A stretch of DNA of 64,000 nucleotides, taken from positions 124,001 through 188,000 of the forward strand of contig NZ_JAGGJA010000007.1 of the NCBI RefSeq assembly GCF_026229185.1. Direction: 5' to 3'. The position numbers and the translations under genes were made by a program. The notes under the pieces are model-generated. The model ran no database searches. It saw nothing but the letters and a program-made list of their open reading frames with translations, and had not been told where the DNA came from. Below are positions 24,147 through 39,384 of this stretch, piece after piece; position 1 is the first letter of the stretch, and every line of letters starts with the position of its first letter. This DNA is from Fodinibius salsisoli. Its GTDB lineage: Bacteria; Bacteroidota; Rhodothermia; Balneolales; Balneolaceae.

Positions 24147-27100
24147 ATGACATATTTAAAAACCATTCAACTTTACCTGTTAAGTGGACTTTTCATCATC
24201 TCCCTTGCAGGCTGTCAAAAAGAGCAACTCTCCACGAAAGAAATCAATACCGTTGCCCCCGAGAAAGCGACTGAAATAGCTGACAGTATTGAGGCTAAAG
24301 TACCGGTAGAACTTGCAGACGGAATGGAGCTCAGCCTCTGGGCATCGGAGAAGCTTATCCTCGATCCCGTTGGGCTCGATATTGATAATAAAGGTCGCCT
24401 CTTTGTGACGAATACGACACGAAGCTGGAGCTCAGAGTTCGACATTCGGGACCACAGAGACTGGATGGATACCGAAATGGCTTTTACAACGGTGGAAGAT
24501 CGTAAGAAGTTTCTACATCGCGAACTGGCACCTGAAAATAGTGACAAGAACACCTGGCTGCCAGACCGTAATGAAGACGGATCGCATGACTGGAAAGACC
24601 TGACCGTGCAGAAAGAGAAAGTTTACCAGGTTCAGGATTTGAATGACGATGGCGTCGCTGATCAATCCCAGCTGTATATCGAAGATTTCCATTCCGAAGT
24701 AACCGACGTTGCCGGTGCCGTGCTCTCCTTTCAGGATAATGTCTATGTAGGCGTGGCCCCTGACATGTGGAAGCTCCAGGATACCGATGATGACGGCATT
24801 GCGGATAAAAAAGAATCAATCAGTCACGGCTATGGCATCCATATCGGGTTTAGCGGGCACGGAATGTCGGGTGCAACCTATGGTCCCGATGGACGCATTT
24901 ACTGGAGCATTGGAGATATTGGCTTTAATGGCAAAGGCCCTAACGGAGAACACTGGAAATATCCCAACCAGGGAATCATTGCCCGCAGCGATCCCGACGG
25001 CACTAACTTTGAGATTTTTGCCAAGGGTGTTCGAAATACCTTCGAATTTTCTTTTGATAAATATGGCAACCTCATTAGCGTTGATAATGATGGAGATCAT
25101 CCGGGTGAATTAGAACGACTGGTTTATTTGGTAAAAGGCTCCGACAGCGGCTGGCGACACAACTGGCAGTATGGAAAATATAATGACGAAAATAACAATC
25201 CGTACAAAGTCTGGATGGATGAAAAAATGTTTATCCCTCGCCATGAAAGTCAGGCTGCTTACTTTATCCCACCCATTGCCAACTATCATAACGGCCCTGC
25301 TGGAATGGCGTATAACCCGGGAACAGCCCTGAGTGATAAATGGGATAACCACTTTTTTGTGGCCGAGTACACCGGTTCTACCGCCAGCTCTCGAGTGCAT
25401 GCTTTTACCCTGGAGGAGCAAGGAGCTGGCTTTGAATTGGAGACCGACCAGGTTGTAGAACAGGGCGTATTGGCTACGGGAATGGATTTTGGTCCGGATG
25501 GTGCACTCTATTTTGCCGATTGGATTGAAGGCTGGCAAACCAATGATAAAGGACGAATCTGGAAACTCGATACGCCCGAAACTAAAAACTCTCAGATCCG
25601 AAAAGAAACCAAACAGATACTGGGCGAAGATTTTAGTTCCCGATCGGCAGAGGAATTGCTCGAATTTATGAGTCACCAGGATATGCGGGTTCGCATGAAA
25701 GCTCAATTTGAGCTGGCTAATCGTGGTGAACAAGGAGCAAAAACGCTTCAACAAGCTGCTGAACAATCTTCCAATCAGCTGGCTCGCCTCCACGGTATTT
25801 GGGGCATTGGGCAATTAGCCCGAGATAAGGCCGATTATGCTGATCCACTCGTATCTTTGCTGGAAGACAACGACCCACGGGTTCGCGCCCAAGCGGCTAA
25901 AGTTATTGGTGATGTTCAGTATGAACCGGCCGCTGAACAGCTGGTGTCGCTACTCGAAGACGAAGAGGCCCGGCCACGCTTTTTTGCAGCACAAGCTTTG
26001 GGTGAGTTGGCCTATGAACCAGCTACCGAGCCTATTATTAAGATGTTGGAAGCCAATAATGATGAAGACATTTATCTGCGCCACGCCGGAACGCTCGCTC
26101 TTGCTCAAATCGGTAACGCCGATCCGGTTCTTGCACTCGAAGACAATCCCTCTCGTGCTCTTCGAATTGCTGCCGTTGTTGCCCTGCGACGTATGCAACA
26201 TCCGGGAGTAGCCCGATTTTTAGATGATGACAACGAATATATTGTCACTGAAGCAGCGCGGGCTATCAATGATGATTATTCCATCGACGAAGCTTTGCCT
26301 GAGCTCGCTGAAACATTGCAACAAACACCATTTGATAATCAAGCCCTCATCCGGCGGGCTATTAATGCCAATCTTCGCACAGGCGGAACAGAAGCCACCC
26401 GGCGCCTGGCTGAATATGCCGTCAATACTGAATCACCCGACTCCATGCGTGTTGAGGCTGTTTCAGCTTTGGGGGTATGGCCTAATCCCCCCGAACTCGA
26501 CAGAGTCACCGGGCGACATCGCGAAAAACCGGATCTCAATCCCCAGAACGCCCGTGATGCACTTGCAACTGTTGTAGATCCGCTGTTGAATGCTTCTAAT
26601 GATCGACTCAAAATTGCGGCTATAAAAAGTATCAGCAACCTAAATTACACTCCGGCTGTTGATCAGGTCTATGCGCACCTTAAGAGCGATACAAATCCAG
26701 ATGTTCGAATAGCGGCCCTGCAAGGATTACAGTCAACTGATTTTGGACAAATAGAAGAAGCTATCCGGGTCGCATTGGATGATGAAAGTTCTGAAGTACG
26801 AATGACAGCCTTGAGCATGACGCCCAACCTGGACCTTTCCGACGAGCAGGTTGTCGAGCTATTGGCTTCCGTTCTTGGCAAAGGAAAAGTTAATGAGCAA
26901 CAGGCTGTTCTCAAGACCCTTGGCAAGATGAAGGTTGAATCCGCAAATAACACATTGTCTGAAGAATTAGATAAGCTAATTGCCGGCAACTATCCCAATG
27001 CATTAAAATTTGACCTGATCCAAGCAGCTAGGGAAACAGATTCCGAAACACTGGTACAAAAAGTACAGGGATATGAAGAGTCTAAACCATCGGATGATTT

Positions 27101-27545
27101 GGTTGCCGCAAACCAGGAATTGCTGGCCGGTGGTGATCCCGAAGCCGGACGCCGGGTACTCCTGAGTCATGAAGCAGCCCAATGTATGCGCTGCCATGCC
27201 GTTGGTGGAAACGGTGGAAATGTAGGCCCCGACCTTGCTGGAATTGGATCCACATTGAACAGGGAACAGTTGCTGGAATCTCTGTTGGATCCCGGAGCTC
27301 GAATAGCACCGGGCTTTGGTACCGTTACTGTTATTCTGAATGATGGTGAGCAGGTTAGCGGTATCATCCAGGAAGAAACAGACAGCATGCTTACCCTGCA
27401 ATCTGCGGATGAAACCATCCACAAGATTGAGAAAAGCAATATCCAAGACCAGGAAACGGCCCCCTCGAGCATGCCACCCATGGGGCAACTTCTGGAAAAA
27501 GAACAGATACGTAATATCGTTGAGTTCTTATCTACCTTAAAATAA
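24147..27545 (+). CDS. PVC-type haem-binding membrane dehydrogenase with HEAT repeats
   Basis: 1132 residues with a lipoprotein signal (IISLAGC). Residues about 45-470 form a beta-propeller sugar-dehydrogenase-like domain (DGMELSLWAS, VTNTTRSW, GPDGRIYWS, NGPAGMAYNPG, GMDFGPDGALYFADW). HEAT-like repeats fill about 495-950. The C-terminus is a cytochrome c domain with CMRCH (about 1013-1017), GNVGPDLAGIG, and SSMPPMGQLL as likely Met ligand. This composite is widespread in Planctomycetes and Bacteroidetes and is thought to oxidise sugars or related substrates in the periplasm; the substrate is unknown. A strong terminator follows. Confidence 0.88.
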   Translation: MTYLKTIQLYLLSGLFIISLAGCQKEQLSTKEINTVAPEKATEIADSIEAKVPVELADGMELSLWASEKLILDPVGLDIDNKGRLFVTNTTRSWSSEFDIRDHRDWMDTEMAFTTVEDRKKFLHRELAPENSDKNTWLPDRNEDGSHDWKDLTVQKEKVYQVQDLNDDGVADQSQLYIEDFHSEVTDVAGAVLSFQDNVYVGVAPDMWKLQDTDDDGIADKKESISHGYGIHIGFSGHGMSGATYGPDGRIYWSIGDIGFNGKGPNGEHWKYPNQGIIARSDPDGTNFEIFAKGVRNTFEFSFDKYGNLISVDNDGDHPGELERLVYLVKGSDSGWRHNWQYGKYNDENNNPYKVWMDEKMFIPRHESQAAYFIPPIANYHNGPAGMAYNPGTALSDKWDNHFFVAEYTGSTASSRVHAFTLEEQGAGFELETDQVVEQGVLATGMDFGPDGALYFADWIEGWQTNDKGRIWKLDTPETKNSQIRKETKQILGEDFSSRSAEELLEFMSHQDMRVRMKAQFELANRGEQGAKTLQQAAEQSSNQLARLHGIWGIGQLARDKADYADPLVSLLEDNDPRVRAQAAKVIGDVQYEPAAEQLVSLLEDEEARPRFFAAQALGELAYEPATEPIIKMLEANNDEDIYLRHAGTLALAQIGNADPVLALEDNPSRALRIAAVVALRRMQHPGVARFLDDDNEYIVTEAARAINDDYSIDEALPELAETLQQTPFDNQALIRRAINANLRTGGTEATRRLAEYAVNTESPDSMRVEAVSALGVWPNPPELDRVTGRHREKPDLNPQNARDALATVVDPLLNASNDRLKIAAIKSISNLNYTPAVDQVYAHLKSDTNPDVRIAALQGLQSTDFGQIEEAIRVALDDESSEVRMTALSMTPNLDLSDEQVVELLASVLGKGKVNEQQAVLKTLGKMKVESANNTLSEELDKLIAGNYPNALKFDLIQAARETDSETLVQKVQGYEESKPSDDLVAANQELLAGGDPEAGRRVLLSHEAAQCMRCHAVGGNGGNVGPDLAGIGSTLNREQLLESLLDPGARIAPGFGTVTVILNDGEQVSGIIQEETDSMLTLQSADETIHKIEKSNIQDQETAPSSMPPMGQLLEKEQIRNIVEFLSTLK

Positions 27546-27829: not shown

Positions 27830-28478
27830 GGTGGCCTTGACTAAAAGAGCGGGTGATTGCGAATAATTTTAAGTATTAAATGATAAAGTTCATCCTTTTC
27901 ATTATTAAATCTAAATTCAGATTCTTTGAGGTGTAAAAAATATGTTTGGGAATGAATCCCCTTAAATTTCTCCAGTCGGGTGGTCACGTATCCCCAAAAA
28001 CCGTCAATTCGCCTCTTCTTGGCTCCGTTGTCTTCTGTTTGCCAAATATGCCGATTATCTTCCACATCGATAATCAGATCGATCTCCACCAAAATAGCCT
28101 CTTTTGCCATTGGATAAGTGTTCAGCACCCGGTCCCGTTCTAAAAGCAACGCATACATCCTGTTTTCCCACTCTGTGATGCCCACACATTTTTTCTTGAT
28201 TCTGTTTTCGTCTCCGTCCCTTCTCTCATGGGTGAAAGGAGCCTTTGCTCTACAGTATTCTGCTATTCTTTCTCGGATACCGGTTAAATATCGATTGATC
28301 GTATTCCGATTTAATCCGGCCAACTCAGCTATCTGTATCGCAGTTAAATCAAGGGCAAAAAGCCTGACCAATTCCCGAAACTTGGCTTCAGATATTCTTG
28401 AACGATGTACATACTTGTTAGTCATTGCTATACAATACCTTACAATTTTATAATACTTCTTAAGTAGTCAAGGGCAGT
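27830..28478 (-). mobile_element. Degenerate IS1595-family (ISXO2-like) insertion sequence
   Basis: A transposase-like frame is bounded by near-perfect 12-bp inverted ends: TGGCCTTGACTA (27832-27843) and, on the other strand, TGCCCTTGACTA (complement of 28465-28476). The span is about 650 bp. No target duplication is obvious, and the transposase looks damaged (see its entry), so this is probably a relic. Confidence 0.68.
27841..28425 (-). CDS. IS1595-family transposase, probably inactive
   Basis: 194 residues. The N-terminal helix-turn-helix part (SEAKFRELVRLFALDLTA, LNRNTINRYLTGIRERIAEY) and the C-terminal part (TRLEKFKGIHSQTYFLHL, SEFRFNN) match ISXO2-like transposases well. The middle does not: the usual first catalytic motif DESYFG is replaced by a short GDEN context, the DGW region is unrecognisable, and the position normally read as IESFW is IDGFW. 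The protein is also some 20-30 residues shorter than intact relatives. The frame is open, but the DDE active site seems lost. Confidence 0.75.
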   Translation of the reverse strand: MTNKYVHRSRISEAKFRELVRLFALDLTAIQIAELAGLNRNTINRYLTGIRERIAEYCRAKAPFTHERRDGDENRIKKKCVGITEWENRMYALLLERDRVLNTYPMAKEAILVEIDLIIDVEDNRHIWQTEDNGAKKRRIDGFWGYVTTRLEKFKGIHSQTYFLHLKESEFRFNNEKDELYHLILKIIRNHPLF

Positions 28479-28584: not shown

Positions 28585-28604
28585 AAAGTCAATTTTCTGA
28601 AGTG

Positions 28605-30896
28605 ATGAAAGTAATTCAGCGCGCCTTCCTGATTTCTATATGTATGCTGACTACACTTACTGCTTACGCGCAGCAGAGCTACAGTCTGGAAGGAGTTGTC
28701 ACCAATAAAAAAGGGCAGCCACTTGAAAATGCTCAATTAACGCTCCAGGAGCCGGACCTTCATACCGTCACTGATCAGACAGGTGCCTTCGCTTTTTCCA
28801 GTCTTAGATCAGGAAGTTACACGTTAACTATCAGCCATGTGGGTTATCAAAGCCTGCATCGCTCTGTTGATATTGACTATTCATCAAGAGATTCGCTTAC
28901 TTTTCAACTGGCGATTAAACGTTATGAGTCTCCATCCGTGGTTGTAACGGCCACACGCAGCAGCCGCGATATTGAAGAAGTGCCTGAACCGGTTACCGTC
29001 ATCTCGGACAAGCAGATCAAAGCATCCGGTAATACGAGGCTCAGCGAAATTTTAGCGGAGCAAACGGGTCTGACCCTCACTTCTGATCATGGCACCGGCA
29101 TTCAGGTACAGGGATTTTCATCCGATTATACCAAAATCATGATTGATGGCCAGCCTCTGATTGGTCGTACAGCCGGCACCTTAAACCTCGACCGCATTTC
29201 GGTAGGCAATGTGCAGCAGGTGGAGATGATAAAAGGTCCCTCTTCAGCGCTCTGGGGGAGCGATGCCCTGGCCGGAGTCATCAATATTATCACCGAAAAG
29301 GGGCAGCGTCCATTTGAGCTGGGCATCAACTCGCGCTATGCTACCAACAAAACACTTGATCTGGGGCTCAATCTTTCTACCCGCAAAAACAATTGGCAGC
29401 AAAATTTTTACTTCAACAGAAACAGCTCCGGTGGATATCGGCTGAGACCCAATTCTATCTCTCAAACCGTTCCATCATACCATAATTACACCACTTCATA
29501 TCAAACTTCTTTCCCCCTCTTTCAAGCTGTAGAAATTGAGTTTCAAGGTCGTTATTACCGTGAAGAACAATCCAGTAGAGACTATCTCGGGGATGCCGAA
29601 AACCCTACGCTATTGGATAGTGATGCTCTGCAGGAAGATTACAGCCTGGCTCCCACTATCAACTTTGAGCTGGGCACACACACTACAGCCAAGCTTTCCC
29701 ATTATTTCAGCCGATACCGTACAGATAGCCGCTATCAGTATCGACAAGGCGACAGCCTGTATGAACATACTCAATTTGATCAATATTATAACAAATCGGA
29801 GCTGCAGCTTAATCATAACTGGAGTGTTAACCATATTTCATCGCTAGGGAGCGGCTATAAGCACGAGCAGCTAAAGGCCCAGCGTTATGCCGGCGATCCC
29901 GCTTTCAACAGCTACTTTATCTTTGCCCAACACGAATGGATACCTACCGGGCGGTGGGATATTATTGGTGGGCTTAGGTATGACGGCCACAGCGAATATG
30001 CCGCTCAACTGAGCCCAAAGTTTTCAGCCCGCTACAAATTGTTTGAGTGGCTTCATCTGCGTGGTTCCGCCGGAAGTGGATTCAAAGCCCCAGACTTCCG
30101 ACAGCTTTTCCTGAATTTTACCAATCCCACGGTCGGCTACAGCGTCTTTGGATCCAGTACCGTACGAGACAGAGTTCAAGAACTGCAGGAGCGTGGACAA
30201 ATCAATGAAATTCTGATTCCACTCGATCAGCTTAACGAAATTAAAGCCGAACATTCCTGGGCTTATAATGTCGGAATTGACCTGTACCCCACCGACAACC
30301 TGGAACTGCGTATCAACCTGTTTCACAATGATGTGAGCGACCTGATTGAATCCGCGCCCATTGCTACCAAGAACAACGGACAATCGATATACAGCTATTT
30401 TAACCTGGAAGATGTCTATACCCGCGGCATTGAAACACAACTTCGCTGGGAGCCCAACCGACAAATTGAACTTTCAGCAGGCTATCAACTGTTGGATGCG
30501 CGCCGCAAAATTGAGGGAACCCGCACGGTACAAAATGGTCAGGGCGAAGTTGTTGAAAAGACCTACAGTTCTTTTAAACCCATGTTTAACCGCTCCAAAC
30601 ACACCGCCAACCTCAAGCTCTACTACTTTTGGGAAGCGCTGGATGTTGATGCCAATATCCGAGGCACCTGGCACGGACCCTACGGAAGAACCGATGCCAA
30701 TGGCAATACCTATGTGGATAGTAACGAATATGAGGATGGCTACATGATTTGGGATACCAACCTGGCCAAAACTTTCCGCGACCGCTACACCCTCCGCATG
30801 GGTATTGATAATATACTGGATTTTACGCGTCCCTCGGACCTGTCCTATTTACCCGGACGCATATTCTATGCTCGCATTTCATTACAACTCTATTAA
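28605..30896 (+). CDS. hmuR: HmuR-like TonB-dependent haem receptor
   Basis: 763 residues from the ATG at 28605 (an in-frame GTG precedes it by one codon). A signal peptide ending in AYAQ is followed by a carboxypeptidase-like domain (about 25-105), a plug (about 120-225: RDIEEVPEPVTVIS, MIDGQPLIGR, MIKGPSSALWGSDALAGVIN) and a 22-strand barrel. The FKAPDFRQLFLNFTNPTV region matches the conserved FRAP/NPxL segment of haem receptors. Downstream HmuY and HemS genes support haem as the ligand. Two iron-type operator boxes precede it, implying induction under iron limitation. Confidence 0.9.
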   Translation: MKVIQRAFLISICMLTTLTAYAQQSYSLEGVVTNKKGQPLENAQLTLQEPDLHTVTDQTGAFAFSSLRSGSYTLTISHVGYQSLHRSVDIDYSSRDSLTFQLAIKRYESPSVVVTATRSSRDIEEVPEPVTVISDKQIKASGNTRLSEILAEQTGLTLTSDHGTGIQVQGFSSDYTKIMIDGQPLIGRTAGTLNLDRISVGNVQQVEMIKGPSSALWGSDALAGVINIITEKGQRPFELGINSRYATNKTLDLGLNLSTRKNNWQQNFYFNRNSSGGYRLRPNSISQTVPSYHNYTTSYQTSFPLFQAVEIEFQGRYYREEQSSRDYLGDAENPTLLDSDALQEDYSLAPTINFELGTHTTAKLSHYFSRYRTDSRYQYRQGDSLYEHTQFDQYYNKSELQLNHNWSVNHISSLGSGYKHEQLKAQRYAGDPAFNSYFIFAQHEWIPTGRWDIIGGLRYDGHSEYAAQLSPKFSARYKLFEWLHLRGSAGSGFKAPDFRQLFLNFTNPTVGYSVFGSSTVRDRVQELQERGQINEILIPLDQLNEIKAEHSWAYNVGIDLYPTDNLELRINLFHNDVSDLIESAPIATKNNGQSIYSYFNLEDVYTRGIETQLRWEPNRQIELSAGYQLLDARRKIEGTRTVQNGQGEVVEKTYSSFKPMFNRSKHTANLKLYYFWEALDVDANIRGTWHGPYGRTDANGNTYVDSNEYEDGYMIWDTNLAKTFRDRYTLRMGIDNILDFTRPSDLSYLPGRIFYARISLQLY

Positions 30897-31641: not shown

Positions 31642-32610
31642 ATGAAAAAACGAATATCATTTCTTTTTGTGCTTAGCTTTGGCCTGCTTTTTCAGGCATC
31701 GACTCTCTGGGCCCAGGATAAGGGTGTTCTCATCCTGGCCCATGGCGGCAGTGAAGAATGGAATCAGGCTGTTATTGAGGCCGCAGAACCTTTAAAAGAA
31801 GAGTATAAAGTGGAAACGGCTTTCGGGATGGCCAATTATGTAACTATGCATCACGGTATTAAAGCCCTGGAAGAGCAAGGCGTTTCCCGAATTGCTGTAG
31901 TGCCACTCTTTATCTCCAGCTATAGTCCCATCATTCGTCAAAATCGATATCTGCTGGGTAAGCGCGACTCCCTCCCACAACGACTGATGCCACTGATGCA
32001 TCACATCGATGAGTACAAAGAGATGATGGGTATTGAAGAGGATTCTTCCTCCAGCCCCAGCTCGGGCCGCCACCGTTTCTATATGCCCAAGAATCTTAAG
32101 CCGATTCCAACCGAAGCGGATATTGCCCTTGCTTCACCATTGGATGATCACCCGGTGGTCGCACAAATTCTGCAAAAACGCATACAGGCGCTGAGTTCCA
32201 GTCCCGCCAATGAAACGGTGCTTATAGCAGCCCACGGCCCCAATGCCGAAGACGACAACAAAAAATGGATTGACACCATGGAAAGTCTGGCTCAACAAAT
32301 CCAGGATATGCAGAAAAAGGAAGGAGCCTCCTACAAACAAATTTTCTCATTGACCGTGCGCGATGATGCCTCCGATGAAGTCTTTAATCAGGCCAAGGCA
32401 CAGTTACGCACGTTGGTACGGCAATCCAGACAAAACGGGGAAGTCATCGTTGTTCCACTCTTTCTTTCATCCGGGGGACGTGAGCAGGCCGTGGCCGAAC
32501 GACTGGAGGGACTGGATTTTAAATGGAGCGGCCAAACGCTCTTGCCAGACCCATTAATTACAGATTTCCTTTGGCAGTCAGCTCAACAAGCCTTATCTAC
32601 CAGCAACTAA
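31642..32610 (+). CDS. Exported CbiX/SirB-like chelatase
   Basis: 322 residues with a clear signal peptide (about 1-25, FVLSFGLLFQASTLWAQ), so a periplasmic protein. Two CbiX-type halves each retain the active-site His-Gly: VLILAHGGSEEW (His34) and LIAAHGPNAEDD (His198). Further family motifs are IAVVPLFISSYS and VIVVPLFLSSGG. Cytosolic CbiX inserts Co(II), and SirB inserts Fe(II), into sirohydrochlorin. An exported double-domain form between HmuY and DUF4198 is unusual; it could bind, insert or remove metal from a tetrapyrrole during haem uptake (inference). The spacer between the halves (about 118-165) is hydrophilic. Confidence 0.85.
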   Translation: MKKRISFLFVLSFGLLFQASTLWAQDKGVLILAHGGSEEWNQAVIEAAEPLKEEYKVETAFGMANYVTMHHGIKALEEQGVSRIAVVPLFISSYSPIIRQNRYLLGKRDSLPQRLMPLMHHIDEYKEMMGIEEDSSSSPSSGRHRFYMPKNLKPIPTEADIALASPLDDHPVVAQILQKRIQALSSSPANETVLIAAHGPNAEDDNKKWIDTMESLAQQIQDMQKKEGASYKQIFSLTVRDDASDEVFNQAKAQLRTLVRQSRQNGEVIVVPLFLSSGGREQAVAERLEGLDFKWSGQTLLPDPLITDFLWQSAQQALSTSN

Positions 32611-32640: not shown

Positions 32641-33408
32641 ATGTTTCGCACAAAAATTCTAAAATCCGCAGCTGCACTGTTTCTGCTTTCGTTATTTTCA
32701 CTGCCGGCTTTAGGCCATAACCTCTGGATTGAAACATCAACCAATGGCGAAGTTGGGCAATCGCAAAAAGCTTATATCTATCTTGGAGAATATGCGTATG
32801 GTGTGCGCGAAGACGTCTCTACGCAGGAACATCAAGAAATGCTGGGCGAGGTTTCGCTCTGGTTAATCAAACCCAATGGAGAGAAAGTAGAGCTGGAAAC
32901 AGCCATAGACGGAAATCGTTTTGTAGCTGAATTTACGCCTGAAGAACAAGGGCATTACCGGCTGGCGCTTAACGTCACCAAGGCGCCCGTTGTAGATTGG
33001 ACCGAATATAATCTGGGTGTCCTTAAAACTAATTTCTTTGGATCAGCTTTGGTTAGTGTTGGTTCATCAGAAGATGGTCCCCTTCCGTTGGAATCTATTG
33101 CCGAGGCCAACCAGTTGGTAATACAACCCGTAGAAGCCGTTTCCTTTGAACGGAAATCTCCCATCCAGTTTAAGGTCACCTATAAAGGAGAGCCGCTGGC
33201 TGAACAAGAAGTAAATGTCGGTTATAAAGATCAGTGGTTCAAGACCCTCTATACGGATGAGGAAGGTATTGTAACGGTATCACTGCTCTGGGATGACCAG
33301 TACGTCGTTGAAACGGTGTACACCGAAGAGTCGCCCGGAAACTTCCAGGGAGATGATTATGAGGCTATCCGACAAACGGCCACCTTTTCTATTCCTGCTG
33401 CAAATTAG
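32641..33408 (+). CDS. DUF4198-type periplasmic protein
   Basis: 255 residues with a signal peptide ending LPALG and the family hallmark HNLWIE directly after it. Two immunoglobulin-like beta domains follow (about 30-150 and 155-250: GEPLAEQEVNVGYKDQW, TDEEGIVTVSLLWD). DUF4198 proteins are often encoded with nickel, cobalt or iron uptake systems and may bind metals or act as periplasmic accessory proteins; the role is unproven. It is 30 bases after the chelatase-like gene and surely in the same operon. Confidence 0.83.
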   Translation: MFRTKILKSAAALFLLSLFSLPALGHNLWIETSTNGEVGQSQKAYIYLGEYAYGVREDVSTQEHQEMLGEVSLWLIKPNGEKVELETAIDGNRFVAEFTPEEQGHYRLALNVTKAPVVDWTEYNLGVLKTNFFGSALVSVGSSEDGPLPLESIAEANQLVIQPVEAVSFERKSPIQFKVTYKGEPLAEQEVNVGYKDQWFKTLYTDEEGIVTVSLLWDDQYVVETVYTEESPGNFQGDDYEAIRQTATFSIPAAN

Positions 33409-35380: not shown

Positions 35381-35390
35381 ATAATATGTG

Positions 35391-37829
35391 ATGATTACAA
35401 CAACTTTTACAAATCGCAAAACCAGTTACAAAAAATTGCAGAACTTCAGATTTCTACCAGTTAAGTTTCTAAGCTCCCTTACCGTTTTATTTTTCATAGC
35501 GCTTATGGGAGTCTCTCACGCACAGTCCGGAATTATCCAGGGCCAGGTTACGAACACCGATCAGAAGCCGGTCCCCGGTGTTAACATCACCTTGGAAGGT
35601 ACCACCCATGGAGCCGCAGCTAACCTGCAGGGGCAATATACCATCGAAGATATTCCTTCAGGAAAATATGACCTGCTTGTTTCGGGTGTTGGTTACCAAT
35701 CCCAGGAAAAGTCTATCACTCTTGCTTCAGGTGAGACACTGACCATCAACGTAACCCTTTCTACTTCCAATGAAGAGTTACAAGAAATTGTCGTACAGGG
35801 CGAACAAACCAACAAGTTCGCTACCGATATGAGCGAATATGTGGCTAAGGTACCGATCCAAAACCTTGAAAATCCACAGGTTTACAATACTGTTAACAAA
35901 AATATTATCGAAGAACAGGCACTAACCAACTTCGAAGATATTCTGAAAAATGCGCCGGGCGTGTTTCAGCTTTGGACCTCCACCGGTCGCGGTGGTGATG
36001 GCTCTGGTTATTATTCTATCCGCGGATTTTCTATCCAGCCCAACATGCTGAACGGCTTGCCTTCGCTTACGAATGGCAGCCTCGACCCCGCAAATGTGGA
36101 ACGTGTTGAACTCATTAAAGGTCCCTCGGCTACACTTTTTGGTGCCAGCGTTACTTCGTATGGCGGTCTGATAAACGTGGTTACAGAGAAACCCTATAAC
36201 ACTTTGGGAGGCGAAGTTTCGTACCAGACGGGCAGCTTTGGGTTAAATCGTGTTGCTGCCGATGTGAATACGCCTGTTGGGGATAACGAAGATATTGCCC
36301 TTCGCATCAACGGGGCCTATCACAAGGAAAATAGCTTCCAGGATGCCGGCTTTAATGAATCATTTTTTCTGGCACCATCGCTCTCTTACCAAGTCAATGA
36401 CGATCTTTCATTCTTGGTCAACACTGAATTGTACCAGTCGGAAAGCACAAATCCATTGATGTTATTCATCAACCGCAGTGAACCGCTGGAAGACAACAAC
36501 ATTTCGGAGCTGAATTATGACAATGACAACTCCTACACCACGAATGATCTGACGATCAAAAATCCAGTCTTTCGTCTGCAGGGTAAAATGACGTATGATC
36601 TTTCGGATCAGTGGACTTCTGAGACCGTTCTTTCGCGCAGCTCGGCTCAATCTGAAGGATATTACAGCTACGTTTCCACCATTGGCATTCCCGGAAACAC
36701 CTACGGCCGCTACATCAACGATCAAAATTCTACGACGAACGGCACGGATATCCAACAAAATTTCCGGGGCGACTTTGAAATCAGCGGTATCCGCAACCGG
36801 ATGGTCGTCGGGCTTGATTTCTTCCAGCAAAAAGTAATCAACAACAGCACCGGATACATTGCTTACGACTCATTTGACCTTGACAGTGCAGATCCCGTTC
36901 CGGCCATTTCTAAAGCCGCAGTGGATACCATGCTAGCCAATACCCCGGTTTCAAAAACCCGTACTGAGCAGCAGGTATACAGTGCCTATGCTTCTGATGT
37001 TATCGATGTATTGCCGGGTGTGTCTGCGATGTTGAGTCTGCGACTGGATCATTTCGTAGAGAAGGGCAGCCCAGAAACAGATGCCGATGATTTTGAACAA
37101 ACTACCTTGTCACCCAAATTTGGTTTGGTGTACCAGCCGATCCGGGAAAAAGTATCACTGTTTGCCAACTACATGAACAGCTTTAATAACGTAGCTCCTG
37201 CAACAGTTGGCGATGATATTCTGAATTTCGAGCCCGAGCGCGCTAACCAATGGGAAGCGGGTATTAAGACCAATCTTTTCAGTGATCGCCTGAACTTGAT
37301 GGCAAGCTATTACGACATCACCGTTTCAAATATCGTTCGGCAGGATCCAAGCAGACCGAATTACCAGATTCAAGATGGGGAAAATTACAGCCGGGGTGTA
37401 GAGTTCAGCCTTAATGCTGCTCCTGTTGATGGACTGAACATTACCGCGGGTTACAGCCATAATGACAGCGAAATTACCGTGACCAGTGATGATGCTCTCC
37501 GTGGTCGTCGTCCGGAGCGTGCAGGACCTTCTGATCTGATCAATGGCTGGATCAGCTACCGACTGACCAACGGTTCCCTTGAGGGATTTGGCTTAGGTTT
37601 TGGCGGTAATTACGCCAGCGACAACTATGTTATCAATCGAGCTTCCACCGGTCGATTTACCATACCGGCCTATACTGTATTAAACGGTTCTGTTTTTTAT
37701 GAAACTGAGAGTTACCGCATCAACCTCAATTTGAACAATTTCACGGACGAAGCATACTACAACGGCTGGTCGACAGTAAATCCACAACAACCCCGAAATA
37801 TTACCGCTGGATTTACTTATAAATTCTAA
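35391..37829 (+). CDS. TonB-dependent siderophore receptor
   Basis: 812 residues from the ATG at 35391 (an in-frame GTG lies one codon earlier). A long basic n-region and signal peptide end at SHAQS. A carboxypeptidase-like domain follows (about 50-130, PVPGVNITLEGTTHG), then a plug (IEEQALTNFEDILKNAPGVF, YSIRGFSIQPNMLNGLPS, VERVELIKGPSATLFG) and a barrel ending in the required C-terminal Phe (AGFTYKF). The RGF/GP-x-G pattern fits siderophore (FhuA/FoxA-like) receptors. The PepSY-TM gene 5 bases downstream is a common partner. Two repressor boxes precede it, implying iron regulation. Confidence 0.9.
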   Translation: MITTTFTNRKTSYKKLQNFRFLPVKFLSSLTVLFFIALMGVSHAQSGIIQGQVTNTDQKPVPGVNITLEGTTHGAAANLQGQYTIEDIPSGKYDLLVSGVGYQSQEKSITLASGETLTINVTLSTSNEELQEIVVQGEQTNKFATDMSEYVAKVPIQNLENPQVYNTVNKNIIEEQALTNFEDILKNAPGVFQLWTSTGRGGDGSGYYSIRGFSIQPNMLNGLPSLTNGSLDPANVERVELIKGPSATLFGASVTSYGGLINVVTEKPYNTLGGEVSYQTGSFGLNRVAADVNTPVGDNEDIALRINGAYHKENSFQDAGFNESFFLAPSLSYQVNDDLSFLVNTELYQSESTNPLMLFINRSEPLEDNNISELNYDNDNSYTTNDLTIKNPVFRLQGKMTYDLSDQWTSETVLSRSSAQSEGYYSYVSTIGIPGNTYGRYINDQNSTTNGTDIQQNFRGDFEISGIRNRMVVGLDFFQQKVINNSTGYIAYDSFDLDSADPVPAISKAAVDTMLANTPVSKTRTEQQVYSAYASDVIDVLPGVSAMLSLRLDHFVEKGSPETDADDFEQTTLSPKFGLVYQPIREKVSLFANYMNSFNNVAPATVGDDILNFEPERANQWEAGIKTNLFSDRLNLMASYYDITVSNIVRQDPSRPNYQIQDGENYSRGVEFSLNAAPVDGLNITAGYSHNDSEITVTSDDALRGRRPERAGPSDLINGWISYRLTNGSLEGFGLGFGGNYASDNYVINRASTGRFTIPAYTVLNGSVFYETESYRINLNLNNFTDEAYYNGWSTVNPQQPRNITAGFTYKF

Positions 37830-37834
37830 AATTC

Positions 37835-39055
37835 ATGCCTTCATTTAAAGAAACAACGTTATTTCTCCATCGCTGGCTCGGTATCATTACCGGGCTTGTG
37901 GTGGTTATCCTCAGTGTTACCGGTTGTTTATATGTCTTCCATCATGAAATTTCGGGATGGATTCGATACGACACTTTTCATGCTGATAACGTCCCCGCCA
38001 ATCAGCAGACGCTTCCCGTAGAGAAACTCCAGAAGAAGACGGCGGAAGCCCTAAATACCTCCTCCCTGCCCTATGGATTGGTGACTTATAAAGATCCGGC
38101 CCGTAATTGGTCGGCCATGTTATACAAAGGTGGCCGGGAATCATGGACCTACTTTGGCAGCATGGAAGTTTATAAAACGGCTTACATCAATCCCTACAAT
38201 GGAGAAATTGAAGGGATTGTTAACGAAAAAAAGGACTTTTTCCAGATCGTCAAGGGAATCCACTGGAGCCTCTTGCTGGCTACACCTATTGGACAGCCTA
38301 TTATCGCCTGGAGTACGATTATCTTTATTGTTCTGCTGATTACCGGCATGGTTCTCTGGTGGCCTAAGAAATGGAACCGGGCCGGCAAGCAAAAAAGTTT
38401 TAAAATTATGTGGAGGGGAACCTGGCGCCGAATCAACTATGATCTCCATAATGTGTTGGGATTCTATTTCCTGATTCTCAGCCTTATCATTGCTTTCACC
38501 GGGTTGTACTGGTACATGCCCTCTGTCAAGAAGAGCATCCACTTTATAGGCACCGGCGAATACAAGCTGCCGGCCGGACCTTCCGAAAAAGTAGTGTCCA
38601 CCATCCCTGACAGCGCTGGTATCTCCTCTCCCCAGGATGTAGTCTACGCCAATGCTTGGGAAGACTATCCTACCGCCTACAGTATTGCTATTACAGCACC
38701 AACTGACTCTCAATCGACCATCAGGGCCAGTGTTCGTCCCGATGGCCAGACATACTATGGAAGCAGCAGCCTTCAGTTCGATCAATATTCAGGAGAACTG
38801 CTTAGCGCGGATCGATACCAAGACCAAAATGCGGGCGAGAAACTGTTATCGATGAATTATGATATCCATGTGGGAGCCATTGGAGGCCTCCCCGGGAAAA
38901 TTATCGCCTTCTTTGCAAGCCTGGCATGTGCCAGTCTGCCGATTACCGGCTTCATTATCTGGTTTGATCGCAAAAGACGACAGTGGGCACGGGAGAAAAC
39001 CGTCCAAAAACGCAAAACAAAATCCACCTCAAGAAAACCAAAAGTTCCGGTGTAG
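37835..39055 (+). CDS. PepSY-associated TM protein (putative siderophore-iron reductase)
   Basis: 406 residues. Four TM segments are visible at about 12-35 (LGIITGLVVVILSVTGCLYVFHHEI), 150-178, 205-230 and 355-380. Conserved His residues (FLHRWLG, YVFHHE, IHWSLLL, LHNVLGF, DIHVGAIGG) lie at membrane edges and probably ligate haem. Two PepSY periplasmic regions lie between. Relatives (PiuB/FoxB-type) reduce ferric siderophores at the inner membrane to release iron. It starts 5 bases after the receptor stop, so they are co-transcribed. The basic C-terminal tail (KKRKTKSTSRKPK-like) is cytoplasmic. Confidence 0.88.
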   Translation: MPSFKETTLFLHRWLGIITGLVVVILSVTGCLYVFHHEISGWIRYDTFHADNVPANQQTLPVEKLQKKTAEALNTSSLPYGLVTYKDPARNWSAMLYKGGRESWTYFGSMEVYKTAYINPYNGEIEGIVNEKKDFFQIVKGIHWSLLLATPIGQPIIAWSTIIFIVLLITGMVLWWPKKWNRAGKQKSFKIMWRGTWRRINYDLHNVLGFYFLILSLIIAFTGLYWYMPSVKKSIHFIGTGEYKLPAGPSEKVVSTIPDSAGISSPQDVVYANAWEDYPTAYSIAITAPTDSQSTIRASVRPDGQTYYGSSSLQFDQYSGELLSADRYQDQNAGEKLLSMNYDIHVGAIGGLPGKIIAFFASLACASLPITGFIIWFDRKRRQWAREKTVQKRKTKSTSRKPKVPV

Positions 39056-39057
39056 AT

Positions 39058-39384
39058 ATGGAAAGAGAGAAAACAACTTTGAGCAAAAAAAGAGATCTGA
39101 GAATTGTACAATTTGACCAGTGCAATCATATAGCACTCAAATACAAAAACCTGCTTCTCAACTTCAATCCAGATGGATTTCTAACGTTCACTTCATCTTT
39201 TGAGAAACTGAATTTTGATGAACGTGCTGTCCTGTTTCCCGATGGCACCTCGAGGTTGGTGATGCATACCCGATGCCAGGAAATTCAACTTTGTTTTGAT
39301 CATTCGGAATTTCAAGCCATGAGTGAGGCGTTACAAGAAGCCGCAGTAATGCTGGAAGTACATCAGATACTGTCCTATCAATAA
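39058..39384 (+). CDS. Small conserved protein of the siderophore operon
   Basis: 108 residues, starting 2 bases after the PepSY-TM stop. No signal peptide or TM segment is present. The core reads CNHIALKYKNLLLNFNPDGF followed by VLFPDGTSRLVMHT and CQEIQLCFDHSEF, with three Cys. The pattern CxHI ... L.F....F resembles small Bacteroidetes proteins of the DUF6686 type, whose function is unknown. Tight coupling suggests a role in iron-siderophore handling, but nothing in the sequence proves it. Confidence 0.62.
   Translation: MEREKTTLSKKRDLRIVQFDQCNHIALKYKNLLLNFNPDGFLTFTSSFEKLNFDERAVLFPDGTSRLVMHTRCQEIQLCFDHSEFQAMSEALQEAAVMLEVHQILSYQ

Follow-up and report, generated by a model that had tools for sequence, protein, structure and literature searches.

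We analysed a 64,000-nucleotide stretch of the Fodinibius salsisoli genome (the window), in which genes encoding a TonB-dependent receptor, HmuY, a CbiX-like protein, and a DUF4198 protein follow each other on one strand with intergenic gaps of 28, 42, and 30 bp (Table 1). A preliminary description of this DNA had placed the CbiX-like gene between HmuY and DUF4198, and Pfam agrees, with PF14064 matching upstream and PF10670 downstream. DUF4198 homologues are also found near the CbiX gene in three other loci (L034, L036, and L065).

Table 1. Genes around the CbiX-like gene and features within it (positions in the window).
Feature	Position	Strand	Basis
Divergently encoded HTH protein of 194 aa; relatives have it upstream of the receptor too	27841..28425	-	neighbourhood comparison
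TonB-dependent haem-type receptor (HmuR-like), 764 aa, GTG start	28602..30896	+	Pfam; TIGR01785 3e-42, below its cut-off
HmuY haemophore, 224 aa	30925..31599	+	PF14064 6.4e-12
CbiX-like protein, predicted exported, two-lobed class II chelatase fold, 322 aa, ATG start	31642..32610	+	ORF, PF01903, AF2 model, SirB Z
Predicted signal peptide of the CbiX-like protein, residues 1-24	31642..31713	+	by-eye prediction, leader heuristic
His34, in the N-half first-His (HG) motif; corresponds to SirB His10 / CfbA His9	31741..31743	+	invariant, 53/53
N-half motif 2, residues 90-104, FISSYSPIIRQNRYL; Pro96 at the CfbA His75 position; without His	31909..31953	+	alignment
His198, C-half first-His (HG) motif; by pseudo-symmetry it occupies the position of SirB Arg134 / second CfbA His9	32233..32235	+	54/54; PMC11301274
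C-half motif 2, residues 268-282, VIVVPLFLSSGGREQ; without His	32443..32487	+	alignment
DUF4198 protein, 255 aa, signal-peptide-like start	32641..33408	+	PF10670 2.1e-13
HemS/ChuX-type haem protein, intact, 346 aa	33782..34822	+	PF05171 2.5e-79
HmuV-like ATPase remnant, last 57 residues	34894..35064	+	tblastn 1.6e-15
Second TonB-dependent receptor, siderophore type	35388..37829	+	TIGR01783 303.6 bits vs cut-off 223.5
PepSY_TM membrane protein	37835..39055	+	PF03929 1.7e-64
DUF6686 small protein, start uncertain	38983..39384	+	PF20391 6.8e-8

The PepSY_TM protein is one that we take to be a candidate reductase, and PepSY genes occur in the window and in L032, L034, L036, and L065. Small DUF6686 proteins are also encoded near other CbiX-HmuY loci (L034 17907-18233), as are two DUF6686-like proteins that fall below the Pfam cut-off (L055 10456-10803 and L060 10804-11166). 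The divergent HTH protein, a candidate regulator, has homologues at L032, L034, and L065 and at the importer-type locus L107. At 24147-27545 the window encodes a 1,132 aa protein that combines DUF7133 with HEAT repeats and a cytochrome c domain; this protein also occurs upstream of the F. roseus locus (L065, 74% identity). DtxR-type regulators with a FeoA domain lie within 8 kb of three CbiX-HmuY loci (L032 1383-2039, L036 6240-6896, and L119 3136-3798).

Fold and active site of the CbiX-like protein

The N-terminus of the CbiX-like protein, MKKRISFLFVLSFGLLFQASTLWA/QDKG, is an apparent cleaved signal peptide without a lipobox Cys, as judged by eye. Our own hydrophobicity heuristic gives its leader a value of 2.67 and scores 49 of 53 members of the family as having a hydrophobic leader. 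The signal peptide named in the preliminary description is thus supported by inspection and by this heuristic, and, read from the sequence, the protein is predicted to be exported. Its match to Pfam CbiX (PF01903; E 2.4e-13, 50.7 bits vs a cut-off of 22), the only one in the genome, covers residues 37-92. The earlier proposal of two CbiX-type halves holds for the fold and for His34 and His198, whereas Pfam recognises CbiX in the N half only; the C half is recognised by its fold and a repeated strand-His-Gly motif. The protein misses the cut-off of the CfbA nickelochelatase equivalog in NCBIfam (48.9 bits vs 120). Its nearest named relative is from F. roseus (78%), and comparison with three relatives indicates protein-level constraint (pN 0.14-0.19 vs pS 0.73-0.80, with synonymous sites near saturation).

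Modeling with AlphaFold2 from an alignment of 25 sequences (the window protein and 24 relatives) gave a pLDDT of 91. The best structural match is SirB (5zt7; Z 20.3, 2.6 Å, 231 aligned residues), aligned across residues 26-322, and other matches are the coproporphyrin ferrochelatase CpfC (Z 17.5), the periplasmic CbiK of Desulfovibrio (Z 16.7), and FetB of P. gingivalis (9b86; Z 16.1). Two Rossmann-like lobes, as in SirB, HemH, and CbiK, are present in the model at residues ~23-322. Based on the four structural matches, the protein is, as predicted, a complete two-lobed class II chelatase fold.

In CfbA, according to PMC11301274, one subunit supplies His9, Glu42, and His75 to hold the metal, and a second set lies opposite; SirB has His10/Glu43/His76 in its N half and Arg134/Leu200 at the second set in its C half. 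Both His are described as essential in Paracoccus CbiX (PMC4063343). In the CbiX-like family, His34 is invariant in all 53 sequences that have a residue at this position; W40 (53/53) and H198, M63, and D242 (54/54 each) are invariant as well (the counts with n = 54 leave out L098). The preliminary description had assigned both active-site motifs to the window protein: the first-His motif of each half is there, but the canonical second His is missing from both. It had also regarded the loss of other family active-site residues as an argument against its idea, and such loss is found in part, in that the N-half position matching CfbA His75 is never His in the 54 sequences (23 Pro, 3 Phe, and 28 gaps) and the window protein has none at residues 90-104.

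The active site is not uniform across the family, since half of its members (27/54, the window protein not among them) have a shifted His in motif 2, at position 94 (14/54) or position 99 (20/54); counting any His at residues 90-101 gives the same 27. These shifted His speak against a simple loss of the second His throughout the family. Shifted His at 99 or 94 are seen in Rhodothermus and Rhodothermales members (e.g., L055 and L046). Lying near the canonical second-His position, a shifted His may restore a metal site in the proteins that carry it. The C-half motif includes a His in seven of the 54 sequences, again without the window protein. Compared with CfbA, SirB, and a lipoprotein type of CbiX described below, the window branch has retained the first His, is without the second, and carries His198 in place of SirB Arg134; its aligned residues do not form a normal CbiX site. 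An arrangement of one His per lobe would be suited to touching bound haem on its two faces.

Distribution beside HmuY and relation to the haem importer

A survey of 296 genomes of the phylum detected the CbiX-like family in 30. A scan of named genomes gave a further set of 34 loci, a lower bound that is biased toward the motif because one short peptide pattern was used; on viral contigs there were 16 pattern matches, none of them a relative. Removal of 12 duplicate loci and of the second overlapping ORF of L098 left 55 distinct loci including the window. In the Gemmatimonadetes locus L098 (7854-8963), an apparent frameshift splits the family match over the two overlapping ORFs.

HmuY is encoded within 3 kb and on the same strand in 23 of the 55 loci, which come from several phyla. 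The loci were chosen by CbiX similarity alone, and therefore the linkage is not built into the sample. Nineteen of the 23 HmuY matches reach 1e-65 or better with our HmuY profile, which was built partly from these loci, and the four from Gemmatimonadota are weak (1e-7 to 1e-9). In a tree of 53 members (L069 and L098 left out; long branches and odd composition flagged), HmuY-linked members occur in both main halves, and the linkage label requires at least six changes. The linked members form six separate groups: the Fodinibius group, an Ignavibacteria pair, Fulvivirga, Rhodothermus, Gemmatimonadota, and a long form of the protein. The preliminary description had called for the linkage to HmuY and the receptor to recur in other genomes; it does recur, with a TonB receptor, and its repetition in loci chosen independently of HmuY rules out a chance neighbourhood.

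The remaining 32 loci, among them ones from Balneolaceae, Rhodothermales, and Flavobacteriaceae, have no HmuY nearby; in L083, L084, and L092 this absence is weak because the contigs are short. Three unlinked members lack a signal peptide (two named Gracilimonas and one MAG named Balneola sp.). Three others that have one (L070, L075, and L082) adjoin copper P-type ATPase-like genes, as judged by eye, which hints that one clade has a role with another metal.

The long form, found in six genomes (L058, L059, L060, L061, L062, and L063), has 556-583 aa, with an additional chelatase-like pair at its N-terminus (in L058, Ferrochelatase 4e-7 and CbiX 1e-8). In its model (pLDDT 78), residues 26-280 fit coproporphyrin ferrochelatase with Z 17.0. 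The N-terminal lobes lack the HG His and have a His-containing motif (often DHP) near the expected second His.

Two further builds of predicted exported CbiX occur near HmuY. Three genomes (G019, G188, and G074) encode single-domain proteins whose N-terminus resembles a signal peptide and which carry the two canonical motifs (HG and GG[NG]HSExDIP). Lipoprotein-like two-lobed proteins with a canonical N-half pair (HGS and SPH..DDIP) are encoded in three more (G011, G005, and G087), in the last two divergently from the receptor-HmuY pair; a lipobox Cys is visible by eye in this type beside HmuY (L118-L120). Aligned with the window type (E ~1e-10), the lipoprotein type keeps the N-half pair and has no C-half HG His. 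An operon-like run in G074 (L040 7043-13826) encodes on one strand, in this order, a receptor, HmuY, a single-domain CbiX, a window-type CbiX, and an FTR1 iron permease (PF03239 7e-29) fused to a cytochrome c domain. FTR1-like motifs were found in no other ORF of the loci scanned beyond G074, and this permease is the best hint of free iron as the product.

Starting from HmuY instead, we counted 109 loci in 96 of the 296 genomes (E <= 0.001; 94 of the 96 genomes are above the Pfam cut-off), merging matches up to 2.5 kb apart and leaving out FecCD matches under 60 bits. Within 8 kb, 14 of these loci have the window CbiX family, 26 a FecCD permease, two CobN/HmuS, and 67 none of them. The 71 HmuY genomes without the family contributed five further CbiX-domain loci (G019, G188, G011, G005, and G087), so a recount with any CbiX domain gives 19 CbiX, 26 FecCD, two CobN/HmuS, and 62 none. 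No HmuY locus (0/109) has two of the three partners. FecCD is beside none of the 19 CbiX loci vs 26 of the 90 others (Fisher p 0.006, with loci related by kinship counted as independent). No CobN (PF02514) match came from the window genome or from the 30 genomes that encode the CbiX-like family. This absence is not significant (0/30 vs ~2 expected) because 64 of the 79 CobN genomes fall into a single family code (f23), and we dropped it as proof of HmuS replacement. Family f23 presumably comprises green sulphur bacteria with BchH. The earlier suggestion that a CbiX protein is an alternative to HmuS fits the HmuY loci, at none of which the two stand together. CbiX, HmuTUV, or HmuS may thus be alternative partners of HmuY, which would be a new general pattern.

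The genes that follow HmuY in the window point to a former importer. In two relatives (G108 and G065), receptor and HmuY are followed by HemS, HmuT, HmuU, and HmuV, and CbiX is absent there; HmuT and HmuV were named by eye, and HmuU of G108 is a FecCD protein (326 bits). L107 and L108 are intact importer operons. The window HemS is 57% identical to that of the intact G108 operon, and the HmuV remnant covers HmuV residues 210-266 with 42% identity. In the window, tblastn at 1e-3 gave no match to HmuT or HmuU, and the rest of HmuV was not found either. The sole FecCD permease found in the genome lies beside apparent BtuF, BtuD, receptor, and CobU/T/S genes, as judged by eye. In the 23 CbiX-HmuY loci, tblastn gave no match to HemS, HmuT, or HmuU at 1e-8, and HmuV matched only four generic-looking ABC ATPases (27-30% identity). 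The haem ABC importer, already described as broken at first inspection, has been lost in the window. FeoB and HemH are both encoded in the window genome.

Possible roles in haem handling

We favour, with somewhat less than even confidence, a periplasmic haem-handling protein that is used instead of HmuTUV or HmuS and probably helps to strip iron from haem. HmuY would capture haem, which the TonB receptor would pass inward. We infer that haem is the ligand of the CbiX-like protein; it would sit in the interlobe cleft, approached on one face by His34 and on the other by His198. The protein would replace the HmuTUV importer (HmuS elsewhere), and import of whole haem would be avoided. Iron removal would take place in the periplasm, a PepSY-type reductase probably taking part, and the freed iron would enter by FeoB, or by FTR1 in one relative. 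In favour of iron release, the importer is missing or has been lost, the genome encodes FeoB, and FTR1, DtxR-FeoA, and PepSY neighbours recur. Points against it are the missing second His in the window protein, the intact cytosolic HemS, and the unlinked relatives; the 62 HmuY loci with none of the three partners and the variable family site also weigh against this reading.

A broader proposal seems doubtful to us. It holds that exported class II chelatase folds give HmuR/HmuY a third widespread haem route, one that excludes HmuTUV and HmuS, and that in the window branch the site was rebuilt from a one-sided two-His arrangement to one His per lobe, gripping both haem faces for periplasmic iron release.

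The main competing explanation, which we consider possible and less probable than iron release, is a haem carrier. The protein would be a pseudo-chelatase holding haem between the lobes, with His34 on one side and His198 on the other; the haem would be passed on intact or stored, its metal left in place. One His per half with no second His suits a finished metalloporphyrin over metal loading, HemS is retained in the window, and HmuS of B. theta, according to PMC12583661, holds haem between its head and neck domains by Met79 and His254. However, a FecCD-type haem importer was not found in the window genome, and the canonical-pair exported CbiX proteins at other HmuY loci, together with the shifted His in half of the family, argue for chemistry.

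We regard metal insertion or swapping on imported tetrapyrroles as unlikely. The model for it is FetB, which shares the fold and is credited in a 2026 review (PMC13402209) with making Mn-protoporphyrin as a chelatase that puts Mn into protoporphyrin; the window protein, however, lacks the second His, and its genome makes its own haem with HemH. Slightly less probable still is that the HmuY linkage reflects hitch-hiking in an iron regulon, the protein serving another metal or ligand, such as copper or siderophores. The loci away from HmuY and the copper ATPase-like neighbours would fit, but the linkage arises in six separate tree groups, and HmuY also lies beside the two differently built exported CbiX types. 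Least probable, and rejected on its signal peptide, altered site, and separate CysG-type gene, is an ordinary cytosolic CbiX/SirB of sirohaem or B12 synthesis wrongly called exported: it is the sole Pfam CbiX of a genome that needs sirohaem because it has a sulphite/nitrite reductase, but it stays far below the nickelochelatase cut-off, a CysG-type protein (NAD_binding_7, Sirohm_synth_M, and CysG_dimeriser) is encoded by the methylase and reductase, and the B12 genes seen by eye are for an importer and late steps.

Should exported CbiX-type proteins act like HmuS in Balneolota, Rhodothermota, Ignavibacteriota, and Gemmatimonadota, more than one chelatase class would have given rise to haem processing in the periplasm. 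How iron leaves haem could then be studied more easily in small, soluble proteins of two lobes than in a membrane enzyme of 1469 residues. The varied His sets beside HmuY (canonical pair, shifted His, and one per lobe) are a natural test of residue roles, and their comparison could tell which residues decide between metal insertion, removal, and mere holding.

Comparison with known systems

Exported class II chelatases are already known from IhtB/FetB and periplasmic CbiK, and IhtB/FetB sets a precedent for one beside haem genes. We know of no HmuY link for the periplasmic CbiK of Desulfovibrio vulgaris. Like the window protein, it has an exported class II fold (2xvx and 2xvz), but it is of the CbiK type and has a cobalt site (title of 2xvz).

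IhtB/FetB of P. gingivalis shares with the window protein an exported class II chelatase fold, a haem/iron locus, and a TonB receptor. IhtB lies in the iht locus, and iron removal from haem has been proposed for it (PMC10913741 and PMC6460266), a suggestion credited to Dashper 2000 as cited in PMC6460266. As described there, IhtB/FetB is a CbiK-like lipoprotein whose iht locus includes an ABC importer, whereas the window protein has no lipobox, lies beside HmuY, and has no importer. By sequence profile the two match weakly (E 0.36 only).

In the open-access literature searched, we found no study of HmuY-linked CbiX. For Rhodothermus marinus, a figure legend of PMC6987092 names cbiX and hmuY as members of the same gene cluster, where cbiX appears as a mere neighbour of glycosidase genes, without discussion in the part of the article concerned. 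Our scan also recovered Rhodothermus proteins of the CbiX-like family (L087 and L093).

SirB/CbiX-L is the best structural match, with two lobes and the first His of the N half conserved. The window protein differs in that the counterpart of SirB His76 is lost, the counterpart of Arg134 is His198, and a signal peptide is added.

HmuS, a class I, CobN-like protein, is like the window CbiX a partner of HmuR/HmuY. Direct proof of its enzymatic removal of iron from intact haem was reported in 2025 (PMC12583661), where HmuS is described as a membrane-bound, NADH-dependent protein of 1469 residues and six domains. There, haem lies between two domains and one ligand is His254 of a His-Gly-Arg motif, which is comparable to the two-lobe grip proposed here. 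Unlike the CobN-type HmuS with its 1469 residues, the window protein has 322 aa and Pfam CbiX alone.
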